This document shows positions 5,043-58,000 of a stretch of 64,000 nucleotides of DNA, piece by piece. Numbering within the stretch: the first letter of the stretch is position 1; every line of letters starts with the position of its first letter. The notes under the pieces are model-generated. The model searched no databases. It saw only the letters and a list, made by a program, of their open reading frames with translations, and was not told the DNA's origin. The DNA is taken from NCBI GenBank assembly GCA_964030785.1, contig OZ034968.1, positions 34,923,186 through 34,987,185 on the forward strand. Direction: 5' to 3'. Source of the DNA: Siderastrea siderea. Its lineage: Eukaryota > Cnidaria > Anthozoa > Scleractinia > Rhizangiidae. The position numbers were made by a program, and so were the translations under genes.

Positions 5043-5056
5043 AATCTCAGCTGTCA

Positions 5057-12617: not shown

Positions 12618-12899
12618 ATGTGTGGCCGGTATATTATGTTGGCATTAAATAAGTTGTTGTGTGGCAAAGTAACTAGTTACATCTTGCTCTTAATACTCAT
12701 TCTTTTTTAATATAATGGTAGAAAACTTTGCTTTTTAGTGAGTAAAACAGACTTTTTTTGCCAATTACTTTTCTCATTAGTGAAAACGTACAATTGGATG
12801 TAGATTTGAGGCAATATTAGGCAATTTTGCAGTTTCTCTCCACACTTGGTGAGTCTGGAATGGGGCAGGAATTTTTGTCACCTGATCTAGAATGAAGCT

Positions 12900-13330: not shown

Positions 13331-13384
13331 AAAAAACCTACCGTTTTAGAAGCTCGAAGAGAATATTCAAACTCCCTAGACCAG

Positions 13385-14038: not shown

Positions 14039-14121
14039 GCGAACAAAAGAGAGAGATCTGAAACTGAATTCGAACCTAGTCTCTCGCGTTTATCAAATGT
14101 CCTTCCCTTTTCGCAAAATAC

Positions 14122-23525: not shown

Positions 23526-23995
23526 AACGATGTTAAATGAGTAATGAATATGTCAGAAAAAAAGCAAAAGGAATAATGAATAAGTGAGGCAAAATTATTC
23601 CTCTTCCACCCCCGAAACTGTCTTTAGGAACCACATTTCTCTATTTAAACTTCCCTTTCTTTTGTTTTTGCCTCTTTTCGCTTCAAGTTTTATAAATGGA
23701 GAGATCTTACATCCCACAATCCTCATTGAGCCTAACTCTATGGGGGTAATGTTCGCTTTGAAATCGTTTTTGGACAAATATAACGGAGAATAAACCACAA
23801 AGATTAAAAAAATGGCTAGACTCAAAATTCAATGTACACAGTTCATGAACCGTATTTATTTCATTGACATGTATCCATGGGCCACTTATGACAACATTGT
23901 AACTCACACTAAAAACAACTACATGTTTCAACTGAAGGTTTACACTTCACGCAACAGAGAAGACAAGGACAATGTTGCCGAGTATGCAATTCTTC

Positions 23996-26186
23996 TCATC
24001 CTTCAATAACCCTACCTGAAATTGACCTATTACATTTTAGAACGACTTCCTGTGACGCCCTGGCAAAATTTTTTGCCATCACAGCATTTCCCAGGTACCT
24101 GTTTCGGCCCGCCTCGGTTGTTAGGTCAAAGAATTGGCAATTCGGTCGTATTGCATTGGTATCAAATTCGACAATCCTCAGTCCAGTCTGACCTTGCGCC
24201 TGGGCCCTATTCCTGTATCGTCTAGCCACTTCCAAAGAGGCTGTAGTCGATATATACTGCGATTTGTATCCGGGACGACTGCCGCAGTTAACGTGGGATA
24301 GAACAGTTTTAGTAGCAGTTGGATCTTTTGCAACGATTCTGTTTGGATTCTCATCAGGTCGCAGTACGCGATAAAGTTTACGCGGCAGAAACCTTGCGTC
24401 AGGAGACAGACTCCGTGAAATACTTATATAGCATCCAACAGCGTCCATCTGAGACGGGCATGGGGTAACGCATCCGAGTTGGTCACAGCAGGCCTTGTTA
24501 TACTTGTGGCAGCATTTTCCCCTGCAACAAGAATAACTAGTAGTGCAGCAGCTGCTTCCACAGCAAGAGCTTTTACTCCTACAGCAGGCTTGTCCATTGC
24601 AGCAATAGCTGCCTGACCTGCAGCACCACTTTCCGCATAGTACTGGATATCCCCTGGCGCAGCACTTGTCGCGTATGCACAATGGTTTGGACGTGGGGCA
24701 ACATTTGCTGGCTGGGTTTCCTGGTGAACAGCATATTTGATCTCCCAAACATTTGTAATAAGTGCAGGTCCAAAAGTTACACTTCTTGGCGCAAAGCTGA
24801 CCCTTCCAGCGTGAGCTCGATTGTGGGTTGGATTTAGGACGTTTCTGTTTTTCAGGGGTATTAGCCTTCTGTTTTTGTGGCGGAACTTTCATCTGCATCC
24901 TGGTGTCATCCTGAGCTTGCTCATGACTCGAAACAAACTGACCTAAGGATAACGAATCAAATAATACAGGTTATCTTCTAAAACCTAATCATTTCAACTG
25001 AGTTTGTTGGTAGCTCTATTGGTACTTTTCTCCTTTGAAGCAGTGACCAGTGAGGACAATAGAAACATTTTTGAAAACGAGGCTCCTGGGTCGAGGCGTC
25101 TGCACTGGTGCTCAGCGAGTGGGTTTTTATCGTTCAGAAACTATCTCGGCAATATGAAAATTATGAGTGTGAGGAGTCTTTTTTTTCTCGTCCGCTCTCT
25201 TCCCTTCCTTTTCCTTTCGCTTTCCTGTTGTTTGGGGCTGTTTGGGGTCATAAAACCTTGGTTTCAGCGTCGTTCCCGGTGAAAATGGCCAAATTTTCAG
25301 GAGGCAACTTTTCAAATCCCCGGCTAGATGTACAACTGTGGGCACATTTATCCAGTTAAGTACATTGTTCTCTAGTGCAAAAATTCTGCTCAACTCGAAT
25401 GTTTGTTTCATCCCCCAGCAGTACAGGTTTATTTTCTAGAAGAGATATGCATCTCGGGGAAGACATACACACACATACAGAGTGCCGTGATTGTGTCAAA
25501 GTGGAGCATAAAAAAATCAGATGGATACATGATTTATATTCCATGAGAAAGTATCTTAATCCTTGATGGTGGAAGAGGGTTGCAAGGGTGTTTACGTGAT
25601 TATTTGTGTGGTTCATGAGTAATGATTTGCCAAAAAAGGAAAAAACTGTTGAATGATTCGTGATTGAAGTATATTCTGTGAGCCGTGAACTGCTTAAAAT
25701 CCTGCCTGTGAATCGAGAGTGAGAGGATATTGAAAACGTTAATCGAAATTTTGTAACTCAAGTTGGCTTAAAGAGTGTTCGCTGTTTGTTTGCTTAGTGT
25801 CGCGTTCTCTTTTATCATCTTTTAGATACAGCCAGGCAATCGTTGCAAGTTGTAAAACATATTCCACTGTATGAAACGTTTGTGATAGTGCTACAAAATG
25901 CTATCCTATTATCCAACTCCATCTGTTTCTTTCTCGCGCAAACGGGAAGTGGTTAGGGAACATGCGTCTGCAACAATGTTTCCTCGTTTGCGGGGGGCCT
26001 TCCTTTATTGTTACAGTAGAAAACCAGTGTTCTAAAGCGCTCTATGCATCGTTTCACTTTTTCTTATAGTTTTTAGTCCTTATTATTAATGGTAAAGTTA
26101 AAGAGGAAAGCCTTACCTTGGTCAGCAGAAAGGCTCAGTAAAGCGGTGACTGCGGCGAGCAGAACGAACATCATTTTGGGAATCAT
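23996..26186 (-). CDS. secreted granulin-like cysteine-rich protein with ADP-ribosyltransferase-like C-terminus
   Basis: Two exons join in phase: 26186-26117 (ATG, 23 codons plus G, donor GTAAGG) and 24942-23996 (acceptor CCTTAG, stop TGA), giving 338 aa. Residues 1 to about 21 form a clear signal peptide (MMFVLLAAVTALLSLS core), so the product is secreted or vesicular. A basic, Gln/Lys-rich linker follows. Residues 74-194 hold 31 cysteines with many CC pairs (DKCC, GSYCC, QACC, KCC), a granulin-like disulfide ladder. Residues 213-338 form a separate domain with LYRVLRPDENP, QYISTTASLEVARRY, GLRIVEFDT and SQEVVLK. The order R215, S255-T256, E322 would fit the R-S-E layout of ADP-ribosyltransferases; this is an inference by eye and the domain may be a catalytically silent relative. 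A possible poly-A signal (AATAAA on the minus strand) lies near 23854. No frame damage. Confidence 0.85.
26117..26186 (-). CDS. signal-peptide exon of the granulin-like gene
   Basis: First coding exon of the 338-aa protein. The hydrophobic core VLLAAVTALLSL and the canonical donor GTAAGG fix both its role and its end. The 1.17-kb intron that follows (26116-24943) has no further recognisable exon. Confidence 0.88.
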
Positions 26187-31000: not shown

Positions 31001-31327
31001 CTTTGAAGGTGGAAGGTTGTCCTTCGCCTTGACAGATGTTTTCTTCGCTCTAAATTCCATTCCTTAACTTGTCGAGTGTTTCTTAGAGCTTCTTCTTTCG
31101 ATTGTTTATCTTTCCGTCGTCCATGTTAACAAAAACGAGAGAAAGTAAACGTTGTAACTCTTCACGAGTTTAGTTCTCTTTCCAGGACGGAATGTTACTA
31201 TGCGGGCTCACTAAATGACAGCGGAATAACTGTAAAGGAATGCGCGAGATACAGTGGGCTCAAGTCACGGTCAGCAAACAATACAGGGAGCATGCGTTTC
31301 GGAAACCGCCGTCCACGACCATGGAGA
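28001..31327. other. intergenic, repeats only
   Basis: No exon recognised. It holds copy 2 of the dispersed repeat (29538-29945, with a poly-C run). Next to it at about 29958-30045 is a segment related to the TIRs of the element at 51599-52804 (CCCTGCTAGCAGAGGCCCC and GGGACCTCTGCC). The remainder is AT-rich. Confidence 0.5.
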
Positions 31328-31447
31328 GGTATTATACGGGTCAAAATTTGGGCATATAACCACGCAAAGTAACCATGGAGTACGCATGTGCAGAGAGGCA
31401 AAGTCTAGTGCCCATGACTTACTCTGTTCATACCGAAGATGGCGGAC
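31328..31447 (+). repeat. left TIR with promoter/start codon
   Basis: Inverted match to 47104-47223 with a few mismatches. It contains the ATG of the OTU/PHD gene at 31439. Confidence 0.85.
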
Positions 31448-34400
31448 CTAACTTCCTGTTCTTTGGCTGCTGTAAGTAGCTTTATAATTTAACAAATCCT
31501 TTTTGAATACACCCCTCGTGATAGAAGTCGTCTATTGTAATGTATGTTGATAAAACTTGCCTATTTCAGGATCAAAATGATGAAAGAAGTGGTGACGATG
31601 ACCCAGGTCCTTCGCTACCTAAGCGACAAAAACGAGTAAGACCTTCGATACTCTCTTTTGCCTGCAGCTTTCTCTTCTCTGTGTTTTTATTTTATCTGTT
31701 ACAGTGGCGTAGCCAGGGGAGGGTTCCAGGGGTTCCGGAACCCCCCCTTCGGGATATCGCAATAGCTAAGTCACGAGAAAAAATATTATTAGAACCCCCC
31801 TTTAATTCCGCCAGATTAGAAAAATGAAATTTTTGAGAAAATAAAATGAAATCTATAAAGTATCACCTTGTGTTTACAATTACAAAATTTCGTGTATACA
31901 AGCCTGCGTTGTACGTGGGATCCAGCGCCTTTAGTGGCCTCGGATTCAAATCTGCACACGACATGCACATGGTCGGCTGACGCCACCCTGTTGTCAGATC
32001 AAAGGTCACGGCGGGAAAGTCGAAAGAAGCGAAGATTCGATTCAATATGCAGCGTTCTATAACAGGATTTTTCACTAGTAAAAGGTAAGTTATATCATAT
32101 TCTGTCTTTTGAATTAAGAGTATTTAAAATCACTGATACACAAACGATTAAATACTTATTTATGACAGAACTGAGAGTCAAAGCAGCAGCGAAAACCCCA
32201 TACGGAATGATGGAGAACCACCAGCGAAACGCGCGAGGTATTTATTTAATTTCGAAAGTGTCACACAAACTGAAACTGCATCCGTGCTATAGTAGACTTA
32301 ACGTCAGTTTGAAAGGCTTTTATTCACTTTGCATTATGTTCTTAGTCCATTAATAGATGCAGAAACTATCGAGCGAACCGCAAATCCTTCTATTCCAGAG
32401 GCAAGGCCAGTAGGTTTGTAATAGTTACTTTAATTTAATTCTCTGGTTAATGTTTAATGTTTAATGTTTTGTATATGTAATAGAATGAAATGTTCTTATT
32501 AAACGTATTTACTCTTTTTATATATTAGGTGAAGATGCTCAGAAGACAGAGGCCAGTGCAGATTCTTTTAAAAATGCCGACTTCTCCACGATTCTAAAAG
32601 GAAACCAATCCACTGCAACCCTAACTGACGCAGAGAAGTATACTCTCTTGACAAATCATTTCAAGCCCAACGACCAATATGCTTTCCCAAAAACAAAGAT
32701 GCACAAAAAAATGAGGTCCTTTCAGACATCGTGGCAGAGTACATATCCGTGGCTTGTCTACAGCGAATCTGAAGATGGTGGTTTCTGCAAATACTGTATG
32801 TTATTTGCGACCAACACCGCAGCCGGTGTATTGGTTAAGTCACCTCTGAAAAACTTCAACAAAGCGACAGATATTCTTAAACAACACCACAAGAAGGAGT
32901 ACCATATCGCTGCAACAGTAAAGGCGGAGAATTTCATTAGGATCATGCAGGAACCCCAGAAAGCAATAAGCTCAATCATAGATACCCAAAGATCAACCCA
33001 GATTGAGAAAAATCGGAAGCTGTTGCACAGTATCATTTCGTGCATAATTTATTGTGGGAGGCAAAATATAGCTCTCAGAGGCCATGTAGAGTCCACTGCA
33101 GGAGAAAAGAATCCAGGCAACTTTTTGGCATTATTAAAATTTCGGGCTGATGCAGGTGGTGAGGTTCTCGTAAACCATTTCAACGAGGCCTCAAATCGAG
33201 CGAAGTACACATCGCCTACTATACAAAATGAACTAATCAGCATAATTGGAGAACAGCTACGAGAAAGTATAGTAAGTGAAATTCCAGCAGAGGCTCCATA
33301 TTTTTCTCTTCTAGCCGACGAAGTAACCGATGTCGCGAACACTGAACAACTGTCACTCGTCATACGATTTGTTGACAGTGACGGAAATATTCACGAAGAT
33401 TTTTTAGGGTTCAACAGCCTGCAGAGGATAACGGGGGAGGCGATCGCGCAATCGATTCTACATACTCTGCCACAATGGAACTTGGACATAAAAAACTGTC
33501 GGGGACAAGGGTACGACGGCGCGTCTAACATGGCATCCTCTAGGCGCGGCACACAAGCTCTCATACGGGAAAAATGTCCAAAAGCTGTGTACACACACTG
33601 CAGGTCTCATTGTCTTAACCTCGCAATCGTTCACTCCTGTGATCAACCCCTCATAAGGAACATGCTTTGAACATTCAATGAAGTTTCCAATTTTTTCAAG
33701 TATTCACCCAAACGTAACAAGCTCTTGATTGCGGTGATTGAGAAAGAAAGCCCAGAGGCCAGCAAAACAACATTGCACAACCTGTGTAGAACACGGTGGG
33801 TTGAAAGGCATGAAGCACATGAAGTTTTCTTTGCACTTTTCCCATCTATACTGCGAGCACTGGAAGCTATGGCAAATGAGCGACTGTTTGCAAATCAGTA
33901 TGGGGACACGGCCTGGAACTGGGATACTGAGAGCAGAAACAAGGCGAATAGCCTATTAAATGCAGTATCAAACTTTGCATTCATCAACACCCAGGTGACC
34001 ACGATGAAATGCCTGTCCATACTGAAGCCACTCAGTGTCAAGCTGCAAAAGCGAGAAATCGATGTCTATCAGGCATACAACCACATCGGAGATTTTAAGA
34101 GAGACCTGCAGAACATCAGAGGAGACATAGAGAAACATTGCACGGATTGGTACAACATGGCTACCACCACAGCGAGAAAAGCAGACATCGAGCCCTCTAT
34201 GCCACGCGTTGTTGGTCGGCAACAGCACCGAAGCAATGTTGAAGCAGAATCACCCAAGGAGTACTACAAAAGAGCGCTTACAATTCCTCTGCTAGATCAC
34301 CTTATCTCTGAGATGGATTCATACTTAGACCCAAACAATGATGCTGTGATGTCTTCCCTCCTGTGCGTACTACCAGCCTTGCTTGTTTCTCAAGAAGGAA

Positions 34401-36645
34401 ACCCTGTGCAAGCTGCCATCCAGTACTATGCAGATGATCTACCATCACCCCAAGTTGCAGATGTGGAGCTTGCCTGTTGGCGGCGAAAGTGGCTAAGTGC
34501 GGATCAAGATCTACCAAACAGTGCAGTGCAGGCCTTGGCAGAATGTGACAGCGATTTTTATCCAAATGTGCACAAGTTGCTGCGCATCTTGTGCACGTTG
34601 CCAATTACTTCTGCAGAATGTGAGCGATCGTTCAGCACATTGCGCAGACTAAAGACATACCTGCGGGCTACAATGACCAGCGAGCGAGAGTCAGGACTTG
34701 CTCTTATGAACATACATTACAACAGACAAATTGACATTAGTGCAACAGTCGACATTTTTGCACGGAAGCATCCACGGCGCCTACTTCTGGCTGATATACT
34801 AGCTGACTAGTGAGTGACGGTACGCCGGAAGTAAATGGTACGCCATAAAAATTACCTGGTACGCGGGATTTTGAGCTTCCCTTCTTAGAAATACTAGCTT
34901 CAATTGACGCTAAAATTGCTAAAAATTTATGCTCAGAATCAAGGAGATGCCATTTCTGGGGACCACAAATTTGGAAATTTCCCGGGGGGGCATGCCCCCG
35001 GACCCCCTAGAGGCCGAGCGCCTCCGGCGCTCGGTTTTACGTTCACAATTACAATTCCCATTTGGAACCCCCCTATACAAAAATCCTGGCTACGCCGCTG
35101 TGTTACGGTATGCTTTTTAAATTTTTAAGTCCGAAACGTAAACTAACGGAAGCTGAGACTATTCTCATCATATCGTGTACAGTTTAATCCATATGTTTTC
35201 GAATACCCTTCTAGTTTTTTGTAATTTTAGTTTATGAATTGGGACGAAAGTTCTGTTCTTTTCTCTTGCCTCCCTCCCCCCACCTCCCATCAACCTTTCC
35301 CTTCTTTGCTATTTGTTAAGTATTGAATTTGGGTACAGTATCGCTCATCATTGTTATTGTTTTTGTAAATGCATTAAATTAGATTAAATTAATTTAAGTT
35401 AAAGCCAAATTACTTATTAATTAACGCAGGGACCTGAAGTGTCCAAATATGATTGTGTTAGAGCCCTCCCAGGGGTTCTCAATAAAGTTTATATGGGTGG
35501 GCTCTGTTGGCAGTTCCAACCTTTACCCTTTAATATACTAATTTTTTTTTCCAAAATGGTCCATTTTTCATGTACTTAGCGAAAAATTGCACCCCTTTCT
35601 TATACCTTAAGAGCAACCCAAAACAACAGAATTTCATCTAATCGCCACATTTTTTCCGGGCTTTCAGTCCTGGTTCATTTGCTGAAAGGGTCATGCTTTT
35701 ATACATTCGGCATTGTCATTTCTGCGAAAAATTGACACCCTTTGATTTACTTGCTTCAGCCACCATTTCTTCCACTTTACATTTGATTTTGGTAAAAAAG
35801 GCACCCTTTTGGGCAGAGCCTCTTCGTACAGCCCATTGCAGAGAGTATCTCCCCCCTGTGTCAGAAAGGCAGGTGTTCGAGGGTTACCAGTTAAGAGAGT
35901 TGATTGTGTATCCTTTTTTAACCTGACGTGTTCTCATTTTGTTTTATTACATGTTAGATTTTATCAAATTTTAATTTGCAGCTTCAATTTATTAGCAGTC
36001 GTCGGGACAGAGCAGAGGTTGACTATCGAACTCGCTCTTCTCTCGACAGAAAGGTGCGTTACATGATAGTGACTTTTCTTGATAATTAGTTAGTTGCATA
36101 ATCAATTTTTAATATGTTTTGATTTGTCTCAATATGCACCCACACACAATAGTCCATGTACATCAAATGTAACAATTGATAACAATTGATATTAGCACTC
36201 ACAATGTAAGGTCTGTGGATTTACATTTCCCTCTTTATGTGTAATGTACTGCTTTTAATTATGTTTATCAGATAAACGAATGGTATGAACGGACAAGGAT
36301 GCCCTCAGTACTTATTTGTTTGAAAAACGGGGAACCTTCCTTTTCCTGTAAGTGATGTCATAAATAACATGCACTTTGTAAATAAACAAAGTAGGTACCT
36401 TCAAATTTTGGAGATCCTGTGTAAAATATAATTTTCTAGAGTTTGTATTGACTTAATTAGTGGCTTTATCCAACAAATATGGCCAGTGAATGCTTCTTCC
36501 ATGGTCATCAAATCAGCAAGGTCTTGCAAATTGTCTTAATGGTTGTTTCACTCATCATTGCTTGTTAGATGCAAGCTACATGTAACTTATCATGACCTCA
36601 GTATAATTATTCTTGTGAATATCTGCTGTTGTTGTTATCATCATT

Positions 36646-36683
<38 letters not shown>

Positions 36684-36701
36684 CAACATCATCAACATCA
36701 A

Positions 36702-36735
<34 letters not shown>

Positions 36736-39700
36736 TTTATTATCATTATTAATATTGTTGTTGTTGTTGTTGTTAATGTTATACATGATTTTTTTTCATG
36801 TTCAATTAGCTGTTATACCCTAGAATGCCCAAAAGCCACCAGGCAATCCATGCTAGATTTTTTAAACTAAGGTTAAAAACAAAACAAAACAAAACAAAAA
36901 ATTAGACCAGGTTCAATGTTGAGAAGGCATTCAAGTACTAAGTCTTGATATAAATCTGTCTTTTAAACTGAGATACAACTGTGTTTAATTTGTAGGTCCT
37001 AGAGAGTTAGAATCTCCTTTTTTGTCCTTCGTTAATAATCAAGAAGTACGAAGGGCTTTTCGGCAAAGTATTGTGGCATCTTTCACACAGAGATGTGAAG
37101 AAAGTAAGTTTTAACATACCCTGTATCATATCTTGTTTATTATATTTGACATTTAAGTTTAATTCTAAACAATTTTGAGTACTTGTCATATCAGGGTCTG
37201 GTAGCCAGCGAGAAGATGTGGAATCCAACAATACAGTAACTCCAATTCTAGCTGACTACTCGGACTACACAGTTGATGATTTAAGGGCACTTGTTGTCTC
37301 AGCTGTTAAGAGTGGTAAGTTGATAATTAAAAAGTACAAAATATATGTTCTCTTTTAAATGATGATTTTGTAGTCAGTGACTGTAACATACAGTTTACTA
37401 ACTCAAGTAGTAAATACACCTTTGGGATCAGGAATGTTGGTTATGCTTACTAGGGTAGTTGTTTATCACAGAGAGATACTGCACAGCTACCTTAGCTGAT
37501 TCAAGAATTTATGGTGGAAACGGCCATTTGGCTGCTAATTGTCATAATTAAGAGCTGAATTATCTGTTTTAAGCTGTGGTCACTCAGACAAATGGGCAAA
37601 TTACTGCATGAAGTTAACTGAATTAATTCACTCACTGATTTATAAAATAATGCAAACCTTATAGCTACTACGTGTGAAGTTTGCATGAATTTTTACCTAG
37701 GCATGTTCATCTTACATTTTCCATCTGAACACTTCACAAAGATTACATATATCTTTTGAGATGTTTCGGTGTGAAGTATCGCCATATATTGTTACGAGTT
37801 GTGCTGTATTTTGACGAGCCGGCAGGGCGAGTCAAAATACAAACAAGTAAAAATATATGGTGATACTTCAGGTGTACAAGATGAGTGCACACATAGTACT
37901 GTTCAATAACCAACTGTACAATAACCAACTGTACAATATCGTGGGATATTTGTACTTGTTTCGCACACTTTTTGTACAATAACTTATACAGTTGGATAAT
38001 AAATGCATGTAATTTAAATGAAAAAAACTGAAATCTCTCAATAGGAAACTCCAAAGACTTTGTATGGGGCCAAATTAATTACCAACCTTTGTGGTGGCCA
38101 GCTGAAGTCCCATATCTTGATCCCAACAATGCTGGGAAAAAGGCTTTGAAAATGAACGAATTGATTGCTATAATGAATTCTTATGGCAATCATTATATGC
38201 AGCAAACAGCTGTAGCAAGAGTAACAGCCATATCAGCAACGTTAACTAGTGTTACAACAACAGCCACAACAGCAACTATGTCTTTTAATCCAACAACAAC
38301 CACAGTAATTACCACTTCCAATGCAACACCACCACCACCAACAACAACAACAACAACAGCAACAACCAATTCTGACAGTGCAACAGGCCCAACAGGATCA
38401 GGTCCAGCAAGCCAACATTCACTACAACAACACCAGGATCACCAGCAACTACGACAGTCTATTGACTGTCTAGTTGCTGACAAGTTTGGAGTGGAGAGTG
38501 TTTACGTCTCTGAATTATGGCTTCTGGTGAGACAAACCTGTCCGGAAGATAGAAAATATGATCTCATTCAGATCATGGAAGTGTTGAGCGAAGATGTATG
38601 TATTTTAGTTCAAAATTAATTTCAAATCAAAATCACTTTATTTAAGGAAATGATTTTCCTTTGTTCCAGACTACTTATGGCAGTACCACGGAAAACTAAA
38701 TGAATCATTACGCAAAAAAAATTTCATCAAACTTTAGTTTTGAATAATTTTGCTTTGCAATTAATTCTATATCATAATAACTAAAACATATATTACTGTA
38801 GCAATATAAACAAAGCTTCACGGAGACACGACTGAAGAGAGAAGAGTGAAATTAGTTAAGTTAAAATTAATTTGATTTCTGATTGCCGAGTTTTAGGCAT
38901 TTTGTGACAACAACATAAAGATCTGGAAAAGACTAATTTTTATCCTCATAATTAAGTTCACATAGTATACAGTTATATGTAATAGTTGCTGTAATGCCTT
39001 CAACTTATTATGTCACTTATGTGCACATTAATCATACCTTATTTATACATATATGTAGGATGAGTGCTATTCCAAGCTGTCAGAAAGGAAGTGTGGTGTG
39101 CTTCTGTCACATCTGAAGCATTTTCCCCTCGATTTTCTCAAAAACATCTCCATCCTTATTTATCCCCACCTATACGAACCGGCTCCTTCCTTCATTCACG
39201 ACTACGACGGCTTAAAAAGGGTTCCTGAGGGGTATGTGTATGATGAAGTGTAATTGATATGACACCATTATTGTAATATTGTTACAATGTATTAACAGTC
39301 AGTTGAAGGGGCTATCCTTTCGTCATGTTTGTTATTTTTATTACTTTTGATGTTTGTTTTCTTTTAAACACAATTGACTTACATCATGCAGGTCACTGGG
39401 AAACTACCATGAGCTTCATTAGGAGCAGCTGGCAGAGGGAGGAGGCTAGGGGGGAAGGGGGTAGATGTCTACTTAATAGAGAGAACCTATCCAGTCTCAT
39501 CTATCCAGTGTCAGCACCAGATACTGCCTAAACAGCCACCATTGGTGCACCAACTCTCACCCTCAGAATATTCTTGTTGTTATCTTGTTGTAATCCATAA
39601 ACATTTATGGTTCATACACAACAATACTGCTAATGTTGCATATCAATGTCTGATTAGTTATCATTGCATGTTCTACAGCTAGTAAGCCAGCTGCCTTATT

Positions 39701-42333
39701 TTATCCAATCAAAATTATTCCCCCAATCCCATTTTTTGCATTATAGTAATCTCTTTCTTACCAAACCTTGACTCTTAACCCAATTGCATTTTTAACAAAT
39801 TATGTAACTTCCCAGTTACAATCGCCACTAACTTATCCTGTTAAGTATTTAGAAAAATTCCACATCTCAAGGTACACATGGGGTACCTCATAAATAGGTT
39901 TATTGTAGATATCATGCATTGAAGTTCATAGAAATGACTAATAATATTTTCCAACAATTTTTAGGTACCTCAATTATGTACCTGCTGAAGCAGATGGCTT
40001 GGAGCCATTTGAATCTTCAGGATTTGGCAACTGCCTGTGGTGTAGTTTGTCAATCATTTTGGAAGGGGATGAGCACTGCCAGAATCAGTTGCGGCTGGGT
40101 GCTGTAATAGAAACGCTTTGTCGCCTTACAGCTTTCACCAAACAGGTATGTACATTGTACATTCGTAACTCTGACTTCCACTGTGAACTTCAAATGCAAT
40201 TATTGCAAACTTCAACTCGACTTCTTCATTTGTGTGTCAACTTGGCCAACAAGTTGATTTGAAAACAAGATAACAGAAATAAATTCCAATGTTTTAAACT
40301 GCTGGAATGGGATTGCAAAATTATAACTATTTTTTAGCTGCCATGATTTCACCAACACAGAACTGATCTGATTGCCTGAAAAATTAAATGGTTATTTATT
40401 ACTTGCTCTTTTTGTAATATTCTTGTCACTCAGATTGCTATGGAACTTAATGACAGTGACAGTGCTTTACAGTGGGCAAGCACTGTGGCCAGCAGTGACC
40501 GAGTTATTAGGTCATTGCAGGGCTTACAGTCTCCAACTGATATTGTCAGGGGTGTGATAGAGGAGGAGATTAAGGAAACCCTTCACAATTTTACAGATTC
40601 TGGTAATCTTACTTCTTAAATTCATATTAAAGACTTACTTAGTTGAATTAGATTTTGAATCAGATGTTGATGTACTCATGGTGCACAACATGCTCAGGTT
40701 TGTTTTGTCCAAAGTGCTATTTAAAGTATTATAAATTTATGAATAATTCATGAGAGAGAAAATGTGCAATGCATATCTTAACAATGGGTACAGATTTTCC
40801 CTTCCTTAAGACTACCCACTGACCTAGAAAGGTTTGTTAAATTCTTCAAATATTTCAAGTCCTCATTAATAACCATTAATATTGTATCCCTATTCAGGTA
40901 GAGGTTGATATAAGTTTATTTATCTAACATGGCCACTTATTCCCTATTAGTAACAATAAGGACACTGATTGGACGAGTATTTTTTGGAGGAATAACAGTA
41001 TTATGAATATTTAAGAGAATGATAAATTGACCAACCAAATCAGTGTTACTTATTATAATTATGTGCACCTTATGTCCTGTTTCAGTGGAGATGAAATTGA
41101 AATATTGATCATTTTACACTTACATGCAATTTTCATGGCTAAACGAAAATGGCACTTTAAATGCTCTCAAAGGATAGTAATGTAAGATAAAGAGTTGTTT
41201 CTAAACACAAAGCTGAGTACTGACCACCTGGGAGTACATATTTTAGACCGTAATATTTGTGTTTTATTTAAAAGAAACTCAAAATATTATCTGTGTTCAC
41301 CCATAGTGTTTTAATGTTATTGTTTGTTTAGGTTTGTTTCAGTTGATGATGGCTGCTGAGTTTTTGCAGAGGGAAATTCGCCAGTTCTGTCGAAAAGCAG
41401 GTGCGGATCATTACAATGGTCCTATTGCTCCAATGCAGTTGAGAGGTGATGACAACTCCACTGTGGGCAAACCACTGAATATTCTGTGGGTGCCTGCTAC
41501 AATTGGAGAGGATCGTTTTAACCACATCCTCCCTCTCCTACCTTGGAGGTGTGGGTGTGTTAAAAATGATCTTTGTCTCTTTGGGCTGGGATTAAACCAG
41601 GATGTCAAGTGGGATGAGGCCAGGAAGGAGATGGTACAGTGCCCTCTGTGTGATGAGTGGTATCACTGCAGCTGCCTGGGAGTTACCTTAAGGCAGTTTC
41701 GGCGATCTAATCTTGACTGTGGTTGTCAAGTTCTACCTAATAACACAAGGCGGGTAAAGAGCAAGGACAGGTATGTATCAAAAAGAACTGTCATCAGTAA
41801 GGTTGGCAGGGTGTTGACAAAGTGTTGACAGAGTATTTCTGATTGACTTCTCCCCAATGTACACTCTATCTTGGTACCTAGTAATTATAACAAGGAGAAA
41901 ATAAAATTGATCACTTAATATCTAAAAGTAGTATGCACACTGTTATTTCCTAGCATATGGCTGACAGAATTAAGTTTCAGTGTTCCGGTTAGTATTATTA
42001 TTTATCAATTTTTATTGGGGACAAAGAACAGAATGTTTACTCACCCTGACAATGCTCAGTGATTTAATTTTAAAATTTCAATTCAATGATTTTTAATAGG
42101 TGTTTTCACATTAGAGCCAGATAGTATTATATACACGTGTAATAATATTATTATTATGATCCCTTCACTGTAGACGGTTAATTCATCAGACAAGTTATCA
42201 ATCCTTTTTGAAAACAGGACTTGGTAGAAGAGTAGTTGTCAGTCTCAGAGAGACAGCTCTATCTTGGTATCGCTTTAAAAAGACGATTAATAGACATGAA
42301 AAACTATATAATTATGTCCCATTTTCACATTAG
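31439..42333 (+). CDS. OTU-type cysteine protease / PHD-like zinc-finger protein (12 exons, 715 aa)
   Basis: Exons, all in phase with GT-AG borders: 31439-31471, 31570-31635, 35982-36053, 36272-36347, 36996-37103, 37195-37314, 38045-38595, 39059-39231, 39965-40145, 40434-40602, 41332-41770, 42174-42333 (TAG). Exon 2 has a basic PKRQKR signal. Exon 7 starts with YQPLWWPAEVPYLDPNN and contains a Thr/Ala-rich low-complexity stretch (about residues 225-290). An OTU core follows: SSGFGNCLWCSLSIILEGDE with candidate catalytic Cys423, and RFNHILPLLP with candidate His581. C-terminal to it lies a cysteine/histidine cluster (C590, C592, C598, C620, C623, H628, C629, C631, C646, C648; QCPLCDEWYHCSCLGV) resembling a PHD finger. 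OTU enzymes remove ubiquitin-like modifiers; PHD fingers usually bind histone tails. The usual DGNC is FGNC here. Intron 2 carries a hAT transposon. The gene starts inside the left TIR. Specific function unknown. Confidence 0.8.
31702..35100 (+). mobile_element. hAT transposon nested in intron 2 of the OTU gene
   Basis: Ends CAGTGGCGTAGCCAGG (31702) and CCTGGCTACGCCGCTG (to 35100) are inverted repeats with one mismatch. TGTTAC occurs at both borders; it overlaps the first base of the left TIR, so a clean 8-bp duplication is not visible. It encodes a hAT transposase (32047-34810). The 3' sub-terminal segment 34975-35060 is shared with fragments at 15955 and 21275. Confidence 0.85.
32047..34810 (+). 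pseudogene. hAT transposase with one in-frame stop
   Basis: Exons 32047-32084, 32169-32237, 32346-32413 and 32529-34810 join in phase. The start MQRSITGFFTSK is typical of ZMYM1-like hAT proteins. A TTF-type zinc finger (GGFCKYCMLF..., HHKKEYH) is followed by a DUF4371-like region, a transposase core with LLADEVTDVANTEQLS and CRGQGYDGASNM, and the C-terminal dimerisation motif SAECERSFSTLRRLKTYLR. The single defect seen is TGA at 33668-33670, after which the same frame stays open for 380 codons. The low damage suggests recent insertion. Confidence 0.9.
36637..36775. repeat. (CAT)n and (TTG)n microsatellites
   Basis: CAT/ATC trinucleotides at about 36637-36735 followed by TTG repeats to 36775, in intron 4 of the OTU gene. 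Confidence 0.95.
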
Positions 42334-42501
42334 ACAGACAATCCTCCTAAGAAAGACAATTTGTCGCTAAGGTGAAAAACAAAAAAATTATAACATCTGT
42401 AAATTTATAATAAATGGATGGTTCTTGCTTGAGATACACCCTTATATTATAGTGGAAGTGCATTTCAATTGAATAATAGTAATGCCTAGTAATTTTTATA
42501 C

Positions 42502-45500
42502 TCATCTTCCAGCAAAACATTCCTGGGGATCTGACTGTGAATTTGCTGATGACTGGCTTGCCGATGACTGGAATAGAGAACAGAGCTCTTTCCGGAAGGC
42601 TAAACTTGTCCCATCACAAATGATGGTGTCCACTGCATCCGTTCCACAAACAGGGCAACAAAACCCAGCAGTGTAATCGATATCTAGGAGCCCCAAAAAT
42701 CCATACCAAGATGATCGCCACATGTTGTAAGAGAAGTTTAATTTAAAGTCTTGAACATGTGAATCCTTCATGGCAAGAGCCCAGACATTGTAGTAGGTAT
42801 ACATAGCACACCTAGAGAGAGAGAAAATGAAGGAATCACTATGTAAACAAGGTTAATTCGTAAGTTTCACATCTTTACGTGAAAGCCATCCAATGTACGT
42901 AAATATAAGTACCAAGAGGTTATACCAACAAATGTCTTGTAATTTTCATGTATATAATAAATATTAAACATTATTTAGTAGATAAAAAATACTCAATTTA
43001 CATTACAAAGAAAAAAGGAAGAACTTGACCTAAAATTTTGGATGAACTGAAGGCTTGACAGTTGAGAGACAGAGAGCAATGCATACTTTGGTATGTTGCA
43101 ACAAACATAGAACATAAAGGATTTCACTTGGAAGATACACAGTTAATGCACTATTTACAGTATACAACATCAATGTGACCTTACTAAAAAGTTACTACAA
43201 GTTGAAATATCTATGCTGCATTCAATTGATAATAAATAAGATGCAAGCAATTTTTGTGAAATCTAACCTTCCCTCTAGAAAGTGAAACATGTAGTCCCTG
43301 AGAACTTCATATGACACGGCAAATTTTCCCATGAACAAAACAGCACTGTCCTTCCCATCATAACACAAGCGAGATCCACATGACGGATTGGAGCATGGCC
43401 TGTAATAAACTTTTTACAAAACAGTAATGCATAAGATATTGTTATCAAGTAAAATATTGTTATCAATACACAGTGTCTTTATTGTCTGTGAAGAGCAGCG
43501 CCTCTGAAATTATTGTCAACTAACAGCTAATGAGGAGAGCTGTTATTCAAAACTACTGTACTGTGTCCCACCTTACGATAACTTAATGTGCCATCTCATA
43601 TGCAGAAGGCCAGTTTCATTTTGTTTCTACAATTCATGTTTCTTATCATAAGAATAGACACAATGCCAAAATGCTAAAGACAACTAACTTAACTAACACT
43701 GTTAAGGGGAACAAAGAGCAAATGTGACAAATTTAAAAAACTTTGCCCCATAAACCTAACATTTATTAAAGCTGGAAGCTTATTGAGGGCCTGGACAGGT
43801 TTACTCAGGATTCTGAATTCCAGTTTAGGTCCAGTCATGTGACTTTGATTTATCAAATTAGACTTTAATTTATACATGGAAAGATGTTAACAATGCAAAA
43901 AGAAACATTGGTTCAAAGAAATAATCAAGATATTACCAAAACATACCATCACACTTGTATGAATGCTTCCTTGTATACAACAGAATGGAGTTTTCTTTCC
44001 AACAGTGCACTACTGGATCTTCACTGCTCCAAGTACTGTGACACAATGGACACTTTTCAAATGAGTTACCCAGTGCTGGTAAGGAAGGGATAAGGAGCAA
44101 AGCACCTGTGTTTGTACATACAGGAAAAATCTTTTCTGGAGTGTTCACAAAAATACTTGCAAAGATTCAGTTAATTCAAAAGGGATTGGGAACTTTGAGC
44201 TAGGACTAATAATAGAGCGATTTATAGAAGATGCTGAACTTTGAGGAGGGATGACAGCAGAAAGCAATAGCTCAGCAACATCATCAGGTGCTTCATGAAT
44301 GTTCTCTTTGAGATACTCAATAAACTTGATATGATCACAGGCAACTCGTGTTGGGTTACAGCCAAGACAGGAAAAGCCACGCTCACACACGGCAACAGCA
44401 GGACTGGGTTCCAGAACACAAACCAAAGTTGAAGACCCATGCAATTTAACCACTTTTAATGGTGTCTGCAAAATACAGATAATTTAAGACTTAAATTATG
44501 GACTGAATAGCTGGACCCAATCCCCTGGTATTCATCACTGTTTCACTTTTACAGAACTGAAGCTCACTGCAATTCAGGGGGTTGGGGTCGGTAGCCCCAC
44601 ACCCAACCCTCCTCCTTTCTCATCTGGGCTTGGGACCGGCAATGGCGGAGTTACAGTGCAGTAGAGTATAGAAAGTTAATTTCAGACAGTTTGTTTCATA
44701 AAAAGGAAAGTCAAGACACAGTCAACTCTGTTAATCTCACTGGCAGAAAACCATTGCTTATAAGATTACCTGGTATTTTATCAAAATGTTGCTGATTGAT
44801 TGTACATGACTCTTTAAGGTATAATGGTAAAATGTTTAATTAAAATAAAGAACTAACAGCTACCCACTTAAGAGGTATATGTACTACTATGTAGTACAAA
44901 ACTGTTGTGGAACCACTAGCCACACTCTGTTTTGACTGTGCTATGAAATCATACTGCTGTCTATAAAAAGGCATACAATAGCTTAATTACTGGCTATTCA
45001 AAATGATAAACATGATGAATGTAAAACCATGCACATAGTAAGTTACTTACCGAATAACTATGGTCATCTGCAACTGTACGTAAAAACACATCTGGTGTTA
45101 TGTCAAACACATTGTCAAGTTCAGTGACAAGAACACATAATGCTTTAATATGCGAGCAATCTTCACCCAAGAAATCTGAAAAGTATGACATTAAGAGCAG
45201 TACGTTATGACAATTAATTTTAGAATAATCCCTCTCCCCTGCACGTACAAGTAACATTTGAAGTGTACAGTCATATACTACATTTTTCAGCACTATACAT
45301 AAGAGGTCAATTTGGAGTGGGACCACAGGTGGCCTAAACAGCTTGAAGCCTTAAAACCAGTTTTCTGTAACGAAAAGCATCAAGGAGTTTAATATGATTA
45401 CAAACAGGAATATGTACTACTCCCCCTGACTTGGATGCTAAACGATTGCAGGGTTAGACCAAGCATTTTGGAGGACTTCCCATTTTTACACCTGGGTGGA

Positions 45501-47112
45501 GACGGACAATGTAGAGCACAGTTTCTTGTCTAATCAAACACCCTGGTGGTAAGAGACCAGGACTCTGGTCCTGACACTTATCACTTTTATTACACTTTGC
45601 ATTCAATATACATGCCATGTAAGGAATATAAAATCTTTAATAAGTAACATGTAGGTAGTAATGAATGTTATAATAATATTTAATAATATTAATGATGAAA
45701 TTTAATAATAATTAGTAATTTTAATTAATAATAATAATAATAATAACTACTCTTAATAATAATTAAATAGTTCAATCTGTAAATTACAGTAAGATGTACG
45801 AATATGAATTCAAAGTGTTTAGAATTACAAAAGAAATACCAAAGCGATTAGCAGCCACCAAACACAGCTGAGGTGCCAATGACCTCACCAACGATGATCT
45901 TCTGGCATTGCAACTGCAAGTATAAATCCAGCAAACGTCTCTACTTTCAAGGCTGTATGCTTTTCTTTCTATGAACATGTATGATTTTTCCTAGGGTTTC
46001 AAGTAAAATATAATAACAAGAATCTAGTTAATTGATGAAAAGTTCTCTCTTTTTTTTAAATTGCATATATAAATAACAGTATACAGATTATCAGGCCAAA
46101 TGCACAAAACGGTCTGCGACAGGGGTACAACATTATGTGCAACAAGGAAACTTTGAAATTTAGGTCCTCAAAAATGCAATTTACAGCATTTTGAGGGGCA
46201 AGGTATGTTGTTTATTGAAGAAAATCACACATGTAGACACCATCTTGGCATGCCATTATATGCCAAACGCTACTGTTGTATACCAGTATTGCCAGTACAC
46301 CACGCACTGTAGAAAACCCATGTGTAACCCATCTGAAATGCGAGGGGGTTGGTTTCTGAAGAAACTGGGGGGCTGCGTTGGTGGGGACATGAAACACAAA
46401 ATTTTGGATTTATCAACTGAGTTGATAAGGTAGATTGGCCACCGTAAAGAGATTGAAAGCTGACGTTTCGAGCGTTAGCCCTTCGTCAGAGCGAATCCAG
46501 CCTGGTGGCAATCTTCCCACTTCGCTATCAAGATTGCCTCCCTGTAAATATATTTAAGCTTACATTATTGTAAATTTTCTCTGTAGACATGATTAATGAC
46601 AACACCAAAGACTTCACATGGAAAACAATAACCCCTCAGTTGCTGTACTGTCTAATAATAACTTTTAATTAAAATTAATTAAAATTAATTTAATTAAATT
46701 TAAATTAAAATTATTAAGCTTACTCTACCTGAAGCTTGTGCTGACTGCTACTAAACTCAGGAAGGCAAAATCGTTCATAGTCAATTATTGTGACCACCTC
46801 TTATCTACACAGGAGTACCACATATTCGTCAAGAATTGAAGAAGAATGACATTCTTGTGTAGAAGGAGGCGGATCGTTAGATCGTTGAGGTTCCAGCTGC
46901 GTGGGTTCTTGAATAGTGTCTTCCCCTATAGCAATATCAATATCATCGTCCAGTCCTGCATCGTCGGCGTCCGATAACAAGGGATTCTCCACAGCACATG
47001 TACGTGATCTCCGTCTCCTCATCTTTGACTTGTCTTTTGCTCTTAACCCAGAAAAATCGTATCGCTTTCTGCCATTAAAGTAAACAGAATCAAGTCGACT
47101 ACCGTCCGCCAT
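42502..47112 (-). CDS. KDZ-like CxC cysteine-cluster protein (HMGXB3-like), frameshifted
   Basis: The start ATG at 47112 lies inside the right TIR. Exons seen: 47112-46819 (MADGSRLDSVYFNGRK..., acidic/basic), 45990-45889 (CWIYTCSCNARR), a third ending at 45051 (acceptor unresolved; carries EDCSHIKALC), 44465-43947 (ERGFSCLGCNPTRVACDHI, then KCPLCHSTW), 43409-43268 (VYYRPCSNPSCGSRLCYDGK) and 42811-42502 (FCCPVCGTDAVDTIICDGTSLAFRKEL, then TGA). This series of CxC/C-H clusters resembles the N-terminal region of KDZ transposases and vertebrate HMGXB3. In the 44465-43947 exon the frame shifts by one base near a five-T run (about 44145-44149); a lesion or an assembly error are both possible. The long DDE catalytic domain expected after the last cluster is absent from the window. 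Confidence 0.6.
46461..46489 (-). ncRNA. hammerhead-ribozyme-like core of a Penelope-type repeat
   Basis: On the minus strand CTGACGA is followed by a GGGC/GCTC stem with UAAC loop, then GAAACGTC, with GCT/AGC able to form a short stem I. This is the layout of the minimal hammerhead motifs reported in Penelope-like elements. There is one extra A before stem II, so activity is uncertain. It lies in the first intron of the CxC gene. Confidence 0.4.
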
Positions 47113-47223
47113 CTTCGGTATGAACAGAGTAAGTCATGGGCACTAGACTTTGCCTCTCTGCACATGCGTACTCCATGGTTACTTTGCGTGGTTGTATGCC
47201 CAAATTTTGACCCGTATAATACC
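47104..47223 (-). repeat. right TIR with promoter/start codon
   Basis: Inverted copy of 31328-31447; it contains the ATG of the CxC gene (47112-47110 read on the minus strand). Confidence 0.85.
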
Positions 47224-48933
47224 ACAGGCAGCCCAAGCTAAGGTTGAGAGCTGCGCATAAATTAGACTGTTTTTTCCACGCTATGCATAATAATGACATC
47301 GGCAACATTTAAGAGTTTGTATGGAAATGATACAAAACGTCTCAAATTGCCACAAATCAGAAAGAAGTCGAAATAAAAAAGATTTGTCTTATTTCATTGT
47401 TTTATTGGTCATTATTGGAGGGCTTCCTGGGCTGGTTTGAAGCTTTTTGGGCGAGAAATTGAGGTTTATATTTTTCATCAGTTACTGAACGTTTAGAATT
47501 AATTAAAGGCAGGAAACAATTTCACACTGCACCTCACTTGAGGTTCGATAAATTCCATCACAATAAACGAATCGCCCTACAACGTCAAAGGTGTATTCTT
47601 GGGTCTTGCGCATACCTCTGTTCTTTCTCATGGGTTCCAGATCCTATTTTAAGCCGTCGAAAATCCCTCTTAAATACGAAACTCGCCTTTCCTGGTATGC
47701 GTTTTCATTTGAAGTGCACACATGAATCATTGCGAGCCGCGTTTCGACGACAAAATGTCCCTCAGCCGGGGACAGGCTGAGTGAGATTGTCGACATTAGC
47801 AAACACGACACTGCGGAGTCCAGAGAGGTCGGTTTACAGAAATAGAGAAATATTGGAACGGCCGTGAAATTCACTCGCCTCACTTGACTTCGAAAACCAT
47901 AATTTTGTTTTAGGGACGAACGAAGAACTATCTTTTGCTGCACTCTAATCAATCCATTCGATGATTTTATGCCGAGTATTTGGCGCAAGTGATCCTGCTC
48001 ACTGCCCGCAAATCAACCTCATTATTTAATTCCCATATATAGGGTTGTCTGCCCTAAAAAAAATATTGCTGTGACCGTGGAAAATACCCACCACAATTTC
48101 CATTCCTTTGAAAACCGGTGCAGTTTTTTTTCTAGGTGGAAACTGCTCCTCGTCTCTGCTTCTAAATTTCGACAACATTTTTTTTGCGGTAAACAGGTAA
48201 ATGTGACGGAACAAATCACTATGCTAATATATTGTCGCACGAAGACATTAAAGCGTGCTCGTGGCGTCAAGTGAGGCGACTAAATTTCACGGGCGTACCG
48301 ATAGTTTTCTATCAGGCCCTCAAACCGACCTCTCTGGACTCCGCAGTGTCGCCTTCTGCTTGTGGACAATCTCACTCAGCCTCTCCCCGGCTGAGGGACA
48401 TTTTGTCGTCGAAACGCGGCTCGCAATGATTCATGTGTGCACTTCAAATGAAAACGCATACCAGGAAAGGCGAGTTTCGTATTTAAGAGGGATTTTCGAC
48501 GGCTTAAAATAGGATCTGGAACCCATGAGAAAGAACAGAGGTATGCGCAAGACCCAAGAATACACCTTTGAAGTTGTAGGGCGATTCGTTTATTGTGATG
48601 GAATTTATCGAACCTCAAGTGAGGTGCAGTGTGAAATTGTTTCCTGCCTTTAATTAATTCTAAACGTTCAGTAACTGATGAAAAATATAAACCTCAATTT
48701 CTCGCCCAAAAAGCTTCAAACCAGCCCAGGAAGCCCTCCAATAATGACCAATAAAACAATGAAATAAGACAAATCTTTTTTATTTCGACTTCTTTCTGAT
48801 TTGTGGCAATTTGAGACGTTTCGTATCATTTCCATACAAACTCTTAAATGTTGCCGATGTCATTATTATGCATAGCGTGGAAAAAACAGTCTAATTTATG
48901 CGCAGCTCTCAACCTTAGCTTGGGCTGCCTGTG
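47223..48933. mobile_element. 1.7-kb palindromic (foldback) element
   Basis: Arms of about 670 bp (47223-47892 and 48265-48933) are inverted near-identical copies with ends CACAGGCAGCCCAAGCT. The loop of about 370 bp is unique. The outer 110 bp match the MITE at 14122-14343. It abuts the right TIR of the giant element and ends 152 bp before the MAP2K5 ATG. Apparent reading frames are mirrored on both arms and I do not think they are genes. Confidence 0.85.
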
Positions 48934-49085
48934 GAAAATCAAGAATTTTTCAGTCCAGGATTAAAGGCGCGAGATCTGGAGCCGAACCCGAGCCTAGTCT
49001 CTCGCGGTTTTTGGCGCCCTTCACTTTTTGGAAAATCGACAAGCCGGAGAGTTCTAGAAGTGAGGGGAAATGAGTTTATCGCCTT

Positions 49086-55000: not shown

Positions 55001-58000
55001 AGTAACGCGATAGTCAAAATTCTGTGTCACACAATCACACTTTTCGTCACACCGGCTCGTATAAATACAGAATCGTGCTTACATTTGTGAAACCTAGGGG
55101 TGGGGAGGGTCAGAATGGCTGGTTAAAATGCCCATTGGGCTTTCTTGTTACACTTAATTTTATTGGAAATTTTTTAAAAGGTACTTTTGAATGCTATAAT
55201 GAAAGTTTAAGTGTGCATGTGCGCTAAATGAACAAGTGACGTGTGTAGGGGCAAATGCCTTTTTCGGACCAGCTCACGTCAACCCGTTCAGCCCTACACA
55301 TGTTAAAGATTGCAACAGCAGGGCTGTACAGTGGTATAATAAAATATAGTTACTGTAATAGTATGTTTAATACTCAAAGTTCAAACCTTTGTGATAAAGG
55401 GCATTACTAGATTTTATTGAACCACTCTTATGGCAGCTGACTAAAAATACATGCATAAGAAACATCTACTTACTTCAGGCACTTGTTAATAAAAGGAAAT
55501 TAAAGTATTCAGATTGCCATAATTTTAACACAACACCTTTGCAATACTTAAGTTCTATTCAGTACCAGTTGTTGTTGTTTGTGTAGCATGCTGAATAAAA
55601 GACATAAGTAGGAACATTTAAAAGAAAAAAGAACATTTAAAGCATAAGAATAAGATGTTCCCTTCTTTCCGCACATTAACATTGTACCAACGAATTTTAC
55701 TGATGGTCAACTATTCTGTAATATTCAAATCAGGTTAACACAAAGGCTGCTCCAGTGAACAGCACAGTTCCACCAGCTGTGAAAAGTCTCCCAAATGTGT
55801 GAGTTTAACACTTATTGGTTGTTTTTTCCCCTCTACTTCTTTCTGCAGCACAGTACCTGCAAAGAAAATGTAACAAATTGTATTGAGTCAGTTTATAGCT
55901 TTTAAAAATAATTTACTAAATAATAATATAATATCTACAGTAGCTATATTGCTGGGCAGAACAAGGCGAGACAAGTGTAAACTGCATGCGTATTTCTCTT
56001 TTTCCTGCAATGAAACACAGACAATTCAGTCTTATGTTGTGCTTCTCGCATTCACCATTGTCTTTCTGGTCTGAAGAGTGATTGACCATTGTTTTCTTAA
56101 TTCATTGGCAAAGTACCATTGATAAGGGTGAGAGAGGGTGGGGGGGGAATGGTTATGTACAATTTTCACAGCTCTGTGCAACATTGCGACCCCCCCTTAT
56201 GGGGAGTGAGCCTCTATGTGTAGTCATTACCCCAATTTTTTGTTTTAGCCCTTCATTACTGGGGTACTGTGGCTATAATTATATTGTGCGCTCAATTTGT
56301 CTACTTTAAAGAGTAAGCATCTATGGGTTTCCCTTTTGTGTAAGTTAAAGTGCATATGACAGATTTTTTTTTATTTGCCTGATCGAATCTAAATGACCTC
56401 CTGATATGAATATCAAAAATTATTTTTCGATTTCGATTTTTCTTCCCCGCGCTTTTGCCGTTTAAAAACGTGAAATTTTACTTCCGGTCATGTCAAAAAC
56501 CGCGCAAAGGGAGACCTGGGCATAGTCACGTTGTGACGTCATACCAGGAACGGAGTCAATGCCACAACAAGCTACGTGGGCCGCATTGCGGAGATCTAAT
56601 TCATTTTATTTTTCTTTATTCCGCAACCGCCAAATTGAGCACGAAATTATGTGAAACTGCTGATGTTACAAGTAATCTGGGCAGTGATTTGGAGCTTTTA
56701 GAGTCCATCGAATGCGAATCGCTAACTTCTGAAGTTGAAAGCGAAACAGAACTCGAGATCGAGAAAGAAGCTATTCAGAACCGAAAGGTCGTTACATAGA
56801 CAATCCGCTTGCCGATGAAAATTGACTTAGAGAATACTATCAAGAGGTAGAGGAGACAGCACGAAGAAAACAGAATCTAGAAAAACCTATTTGATGGTAC
56901 CGTAGCGCTCGAGACGTAGTAAGAAGTGCCACGATTTCTCATCTCCCGGTGTAAATATTATAATTATGCTTGGCTAAATAAACCTTGTTCGCGCTCGGCT
57001 AAATAAACGCCTGTTATGCAGGTTATACTTTCATACTCTTACAGGTGTAGATGTGGTAACTGTGCTTTAAACCATCTGCAAAACGCCGTAGATTGTCTTT
57101 GCTTCCAAGAAATTCAGAAATGTGTCGAATCTCTTGAAGCGCCGTCGGTATGTTTCGCGCGAAGCCGCAAACTTAACACAACAACAGGATGTGTAACAAC
57201 CTACCCGGCACTGTTCAGTGTTGTCTGACTTTAAAGCTGATGGTCGCTACGATCAGATGCAGAAAATATAATACGATAGATGGAAGAAAGTATCGTTCAG
57301 TAGATTGGTTCGGAAGAGAAGTGAGTAATTCTCTACGTTCTTGTGGACTCTCTGAAACGTTGTTGTTTCATGTCTATGCAAATTGTGCAATAGCAGTGAT
57401 TGATATTTCAGGTCTTTCAATAAGAATAAGCTGCAGTAAGATTATTAAATGAAGATAAGAGTTTGCTCATTCCTTTCAAAACTTAGTCAGACATGTTTTC
57501 ATCATAATTTTATAATTATCCGTAATCCAGTTGTGCAAAAATGAGGGATGTTATAATCTTTACCTCAGTTATGAATCAACACTGGTCAGTATATCGGAAG
57601 TAAACAAGGCAGAAATTTCGAGTGTCAATTTGCCTACACGTATTAAATGCAACACGAATGTTTCAGAGAGTCCACAAGAACGCAGACAAACTCTCACTTC
57701 CCTTCCGAACTAATCTGACAACAATTTCTTCCGTCTAGTGTATTATATAGTGCTGCATCTGATCGTAGCGACCATCTGTTCAGACAACACTGAATCCCGG
57801 GTGCATTGTTTCACATCCTGTTGTTGTGTCAAGTACGCGGCTTCGCGCGAGACAACAGCGTTTCGGGAGATTCGACACATTTCTGAACTTCTTTGCAGCA
57901 AAGACAATCTACGGCGTTTTGCAGATGGTTTAAGGCACAGTTACTTCATCTACACAGGTAAGAGTATGAAAGTATAACCTGCATAACAGGCGTTTATTTA

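Follow-up and report, generated by a model that had tools for sequence, protein, structure and literature searches.

To our knowledge, elements with a KDZ transposase are little studied in animals. In the available part of PMC12730594, Zisupton and a member of Dileera make 8-bp duplications, fungal Kyakuja elements are described with 7-bp duplications, CA..TG ends and no terminal inverted repeats, and fungal KDZ elements carry a second gene, TET/JBP, beside the transposase. Here, an element of this kind is described in a 64,000-nt stretch of the coral Siderastrea siderea (the window; GenBank assembly GCA_964030785.1, contig OZ034968.1, positions 34,923,186 to 34,987,185, forward strand). Positions 31326-47223 of the window are very probably a defective, internally deleted copy of a KDZ cut-and-paste DNA transposon, this judgement covering the reading as a whole, including the end and array mechanism proposed below. 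Measured against the text available on KDZ elements, the likeness lies in the transposase family, in terminal inverted repeats as in Zisupton, and in a second gene, as with fungal TET/JBP. The differences are the 7-bp duplications and 5'-GAGG ends found here, a companion PHD protein instead of TET/JBP, and paired 22-31 kb copies with facing central arrays. The 7-bp duplications, seen at the copies C5, C10a, C13 and C2a/C2b, depart from the 8 bp of Zisupton and the Dileera member; they agree in length with those of fungal Kyakuja, but the GAGG..CCTC ends with 120-bp inverted repeats do not.

Galileo is a P-like element. In the available part of PMC4079207, its tandem units, in which a part of the terminal repeat recurs, are read as extra transposase-binding sites and its transposase is of the THAP type; for Tetris, which has duplications of 8-10 bp, a Mutator-like nature is proposed. 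Facing arrays of such units are present here in larger and small copies alike, but they are flanked by a two-gene unit and go with a KDZ transposase. RAG-like transposons (ProtoRAG) contain two convergent genes, for a transposase and a partner, according to the available part of PMC7204232. General Pfam scans, the only search for RAG homology made, returned no RAG family. RAG2 has a PHD finger, and as far as the available account goes the likeness to ProtoRAG consists of a convergent transposase and partner in one element, with a PHD finger in the partner; the transposase is KDZ here and RAG1-like there, and the ends, duplication length and arrays differ as well. Ginger1 comprises animal DNA transposons with OTU, Ulp1 or PHD domains (available part of PMC2836005). 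From that text, a PHD domain carried by an animal DNA transposon is common to both (OTU being unproven here), but in Ginger1 a Gypsy-type integrase carries the domains as fusions, whereas here the PHD protein has a separate gene beside the KDZ transposase. Coral CMITEs were considered as small relatives and rejected, being piggyBac-like with TTAA in the available part of PMC2872659. No described element of such a layout was found among the literature matches listed, a scope outside which the founding KDZ papers lie.

The window copy is bounded by inverted arms of 120 nt each (31328-31447 and 47104-47223), 15,656 nt apart and 99% complementary with a sole mismatch at 31357, a match far beyond chance; the 120-bp inverted repeats 15.9 kb apart of the original prediction thus stand. 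The element starts two bases outward of the left arm, at 5'-GAGG, and its right end has the expected CCTC without the last TC; copies open with 5'-GAGGTATTATACGG and close with the complement of 5'-GAGGTATTATACGG. Two convergent multi-exon genes face inward, each with its ATG within its own repeat (31439, plus strand, in the left arm; 47112, minus strand, in the right). The prediction of exactly two enclosed genes, each starting in its own repeat, was right for these genes and their start codons but overlooked a hAT transposon (31702-35100) that is also enclosed.

The check for further inverted pairs that had been set beforehand was made by a left-arm search of the source genome (830.9 Mb, 402 contigs), in which 40 of 42 candidates were scored. 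At least 115 of the 120 bases were covered in 12 of the 40 matches (two being the window's own arms), and these form four near-full-length inverted pairs of 15.9-30.6 kb, the window included, besides unpaired ends (Table 1). The remaining 28 matches are partial, covering mostly the outer 68 bases, and many are paired ~1-12 kb apart. Homologous gene content in the same layout lies between the repeats at other copies. At C10b (L015), two left arms lie ~5.4 kb apart with identical flanking bases, a tandem duplication including the flank. Among 12 inverted pairs examined, six have matching target duplications, representing five distinct loci. Exact 7-mers flank C10a (TCTCGTT), C5 (TCAACAT) and C13 (ACTGTTT), and both C2a and C2b (CACAATC), apparently a single insertion duplicated along with its flanks; at C3b nine flanking bases are shared, the edge is ambiguous and the right end lacks CTC. 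With the repeat recurring as inverted pairs with target duplications, the mobile unit originally predicted is borne out. A host gene pair lying by chance between unrelated inverted repeats, or a segmental duplication, would accommodate both a window copy without target duplication and the C2a/C2b pair, but is very improbable, given the same ends, homologous genes and same layout on other chromosomes, the separate 7-bp duplications of C5 and C10a, and a minus gene that is a KDZ transposase. This explanation was rejected on copy number, common gene content and target duplications.

A second inverted-repeat element (47222-48934; 1.7 kb; 574-nt arms 47222-47795 and 48361-48934, 99% inverted, CACAGGCAG..CTGCCTGTG) abuts the right end of the window copy, coinciding with the absent target duplication there; no clear target duplication was seen around this neighbour itself. 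A short way into the right flank of the C5 copy (L029, ~870 onward) there is an open frame reading ATGGCGGACG.., perhaps the start of a host gene; the family might favour insertion near gene starts.

The transposase gene is best read from the C5 copy, in which the minus gene extends past the breakpoint of the window copy. The protein assembled from C5 exons (906 amino acids, with X at an in-frame stop) has six homologs aligned along its length (E 2.1e-124 to 1.5e-74; 7,712 candidates), including proteins from Branchiostoma, Mercenaria, Sardina and Clytia. The KDZ domain (PF18758) scores over the Pfam cutoff in three of the six (P0003, P0004, P0006), as does CxC4 (PF18717) in three (P0001, P0003, P0005). 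Several cysteines align between the C5 protein and the six homologs (alignment A1), and candidate D, D and E residues, taken to be catalytic, are invariant in all six homologs. Judged from these relatives, membership in the KDZ superfamily is well supported and the minus gene is a transposase of the KDZ kind. The original prediction, a relative of the cysteine-cluster part of KDZ transposases, was correct as to the kind but too narrow, for the gene is the transposase itself and not the cluster alone.

Pfam scans of single transposase exons gave no KDZ match, the domain presumably being divided among several exons; nothing exceeded the cutoff in an NCBIfam scan, and a phage collection held no match to the transposase end. 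A genome search with the catalytic end gave 35 matches. Close ones (88-98%) are confined to two C5 exons; the remaining 33 have 36-66% identity, in part as several exons per locus, and belong to other KDZ lineages. No copy besides C5 was found to have the catalytic end, and the window copy retains the first Asp only. A sister KDZ family (L045, L047 and L043, also L036 and L038) has ~95-98% identity among copies and at least five loci in the genome, with matches of 54-57%; L045 and L047 are alike over up to 8.8 kb and have exons spanning both Asp and Glu.

The window copy is a defective, non-functional internal-deletion derivative. Its transposase gene is damaged twice, by a TAA in exon 1 and a frameshift in the cysteine-cluster exon, and the deletion took the centre with its arrays, along with the exons that encode the second Asp and the Glu. 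The original prediction had missed this state of the copy, as well as the facing-array centre held by larger copies. The window copy would be mobile only through the enzyme of another copy, if at all. The equivalent of 37079-39532 is gone from C10a, C10b, C7 and C12, and the breakpoints of this loss are identical in C10a and C7, the two that were read, so that a deleted form has moved as a unit.

The plus gene encodes the companion protein. The PHD finger (PF00628, cutoff 24) scores 25.7 bits in the window exon, 25.5 in the C5 exon and 25.1 in P0007, and a longer assembled companion piece scores 23.7, just under the cutoff; the predicted chromatin-reader partner is upheld by the window score. 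P0007, from Acropora palmata, is the only homolog among the matches listed (6,536 and 7,998 candidates, 5.77-billion-protein collection), and agrees with the assembled C5 companion at 61% of aligned columns, a closeness that would fit a host among stony corals or other cnidarians. A GNC...H pattern in the companion resembles that of OTU proteases. Two sequences of the GNC..H region gave no Pfam OTU match (E limit 10, with filters that drop most matches above ~0.1). The OTU label of the companion is one of motifs, and the ubiquitin-like protease originally predicted is not upheld. Matches to PWWP (PF00855, E 0.05, under the cutoff, in the 38045..38595 exon) and to the PWWP3A/B C-terminal family (PWP3A-B_C, PF20886, 20.8 bits, cutoff 27) are weak leads to possible domains. 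A stop interrupts the PWWP-like exon of the C5 companion at a place where the window copy is open.

That the companion is a passenger, a captured host gene without a role in transposition, is a serious possibility, if somewhat short of an even one: there is a single outside homolog among the matches listed, the sister KDZ family shows no companion exon 4-11 kb downstream of the transposase end at the three loci extended, and four other large copies are deleted for the PHD exon, yet are present at several loci. Against a passenger speak the companion's own ATG in the terminal repeat, like that of the transposase, its fit to the convergent two-gene layout, and the agreement of the C5 companion with the Acropora protein.

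In the larger copies, units of ~180 bp form two arrays that face each other, the minus run coming before the plus run; small copies are largely ends plus arrays. The searched loci gave 266 units in total, spread over 19 of them, with none in the window copy. Conservation was profiled over 225 near-full units. In 128 units from large copies the best-conserved 40-bp window is CTATACCCAAATTTTGGGCATAGGTTAACCATGGCACTTT (0.966; mean 0.892), and in 97 from small copies it is TGGTTACTCTATACCCAAATTTTGGGCATAGGTTAACCAT (0.937; mean 0.888); the two overlap by 32 bp on the same imperfect palindrome, which resembles the terminal repeat (CAAAATTTGGGCATATAACCA). Four array-to-end comparisons scored 30, 28, 28 and 29, against 27, 26, 25 and 30 for the best of 200 shuffles, so that the real end lies above all shuffles in three of the four. 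The arrays are probably transposase-binding sites, as reported for Galileo. Two units used as queries against the genome gave 262 matches; of the matches listed, eight are the only ones more than ~27 kb away from a repeat end. Units far from repeat ends (C5:29617048-29617941, C11:17789415-17790126 and C1:80571919-80572196) are perhaps older copies or freed satellite.

Alternatively, the arrays may have no binding role, being satellite-like expansions of a duplicated end whose palindromes are alike through conversion or recombination only. This is possible, though we would lean against it. In its favour, the motif match amounts to one observation, since the units share descent; array size ranges from 8 to 64 units among the two-sided copies tallied; and eight listed units lie away from any repeat end found. 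Against it, overlapping palindrome windows are the best-conserved 40 bp in large and small copies alike. Were the KDZ gene and companion mere cargo of a foldback element, of either the P/Galileo or the Mutator type, that element would share with Galileo and Tetris the tandem units repeating a piece of the terminal repeat (available part of PMC4079207), and would suit small copies that are largely ends plus arrays. This reading is improbable, however, in that the large copies show no other transposase besides apparent later insertions (the hAT, and open reading frames without a profile match), and the duplications are 7 bp here versus the 8-10 bp given for Tetris in that text.

In C10a, the spacer between the arrays holds ~6 kb of other sequence, in which some frames look coding (L009:6541-9173, minus strand) and perhaps belong to a SAMD3-like gene; three pieces gave nothing over the Pfam cutoff. 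The array spacer of C10b contains a 410-amino-acid open frame (L016 ~4220-5450, minus strand), perhaps like a Crypton-type tyrosine recombinase, and parts of this spacer are shared with C5 and C7.

In the KDZ transposon reading, the terminal repeat would be end, promoter and start codon in one, and the end-binding transposase could therefore silence the two genes as well. This transposase, made up of a zinc cluster and a D-D-E domain, would recognise a CAAAATTTGGGCATA..TAACCA motif in the ends and the same motif, as an imperfect palindrome, in the array units. The facing central arrays would be extra docking sites or a sink for the transposase, and the PHD companion would tether the complex to marked chromatin or shield it. 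We infer that the element would work like a KDZ transposon with foldback-like inner arrays. A stronger version, rather unlikely in our judgement, is a KDZ counterpart of RAG1/RAG2, in which a D-D-E transposase and a convergent PHD partner (possibly also a deubiquitinase) would work from terminal inverted repeats serving as ends, promoters and start codons. Array-bound transposase would fold the element and join its ends, the partner would dock the complex on marked chromatin, and the transposase, once abundant, would silence both genes through the end-promoter that they share.

Several observations weigh against the KDZ transposon reading and its proposed mechanism. The C5 protein by itself scores 22.6 bits for KDZ, below the cutoff of 26.6, and its Pfam scan gave no CxC match. 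Both Asp are kept in C5, with Gln where all six homologs have Glu, and an in-frame stop lies within the first-Asp exon; with these two changes, no working transposase has been seen. Structure predictions of the Branchiostoma transposase homolog P0001 and of P0007 have a mean pLDDT (predicted local distance difference test) of 44 each. The compared exons of the window and C5 differ by nine non-synonymous and three synonymous codons and one stop, differences that look neutral and would fit decaying copies. No flanking duplication was found at the window copy, C10b and one C7 pair among the 12 pairs; the L018 pair has five flanking bases in common, and at L019 and L021 the right end could not be anchored. 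In the fourth array-to-end comparison a shuffle exceeds the real end, and the units are related by descent, so the palindrome match does not amount to many independent observations. The roles of the arrays and the companion are proposals.

The exon models of both genes in Table 1 were inferred from sequence alone. AG/GT borders lie at the stated coordinates in seven of the 13, including five plus-gene exons (in each of the two first exons the donor alone is relevant), and the borders of E3, E5, PHD, X3, X4 and X5 are off AG/GT by a base or two, or approximate. The plus gene is truncated shortly past its 41334..41771 exon. The hAT transposon, identified by DUF4371 (2.1e-28), is not present in the C5 copy, and its frame is divided by an in-frame stop into open reading frames 32489-33670 and 33671-34810.

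Table 1. Features of the window copy (window positions), followed by other copies of the repeat and counts of array units
Feature	Location or count	Strand	Remarks
Left terminal inverted repeat	31326..31447	+	from 5'-GAGG; holds plus-gene ATG 31439
Plus exon 1	31439..31471	+	starts in repeat; ATG and GT donor; inferred
Plus exon 2	31570..31635	+	AG/GT borders; inferred
hAT transposon	31702..35100	+	in inferred plus-gene intron; target-site duplication TGTTA at 31697-31701 and 35101-35105
Plus exon	37200..37313	+	match to C5 exon; edges approximate
Plus exon, weak PWWP-like stretch	38045..38595	+	AG/GT borders
Plus exon	39059..39232	+	conserved in Acropora palmata P0007; 3' edge approximate
Plus exon with GNCLWCSLS (OTU-like) motif	39965..40145	+	AG/GT borders
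Plus exon	40434..40602	+	
Plus exon, late-His OTU-like motif and PHD finger	41334..41771	+	PF00628 25.7 bits; edges approximate
Deletion junction	41789..41793		5-bp microhomology TGTCA; ~18 kb of C5 centre gone
Minus exon remnant, first 30 codons	41790..41879	-	cut by deletion
Minus exon with CPVCG and candidate first catalytic Asp (CDGT)	42505..42810	-	edges approximate
Minus exon (CSNPSCG..YDG)	43267..43398	-	
Minus exon with cysteine cluster	43951..44465	-	frameshift; one-base gap versus C5
Minus exon 2	45051..45341	-	AG/GT borders
Minus exon 1	46729..47112	-	starts in repeat; in-frame TAA
Right terminal inverted repeat	47104..47223	-	holds minus-gene ATG 47112; final TC missing
Window pair	15.9 kb span		near-full-length inverted arms
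C10a	C10:5213174/5235493		22.3 kb; near-full-length inverted pair
C5 copy	C5:22562244/22592809		30.6 kb; near-full-length inverted pair
C10b	C10:31290469 with 31295910/31319659		29 or 24 kb; two left arms
Unpaired near-full-length ends	C7, C12, C319		three, one each
Array units, large copies	C10a 8/27; C5 16/48; C10b 15/6	minus/plus	C10b: +2 in duplicated left arm
Array units, small elements	L018 4/4; L020 8/4; L026 15/5; L027-L028 28/9	minus/plus	

Elsewhere in the window, a 324-amino-acid open frame (23996-24970, minus strand) is very cysteine-rich in its first half and different in its second, and three more long inverted-repeat structures (11472-14042, 21700-23534 and 56342-58852) are possibly other foldback elements.

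The family joins a KDZ transposase, defined ends, a 7-bp duplication, a PHD companion and end-like arrays, with large and small forms in one genome. Two questions can be addressed directly with it: of what use arrays of binding sites and companion chromatin proteins are to a transposon, and by what means DNA transposons of 20-30 kb remain mobile.

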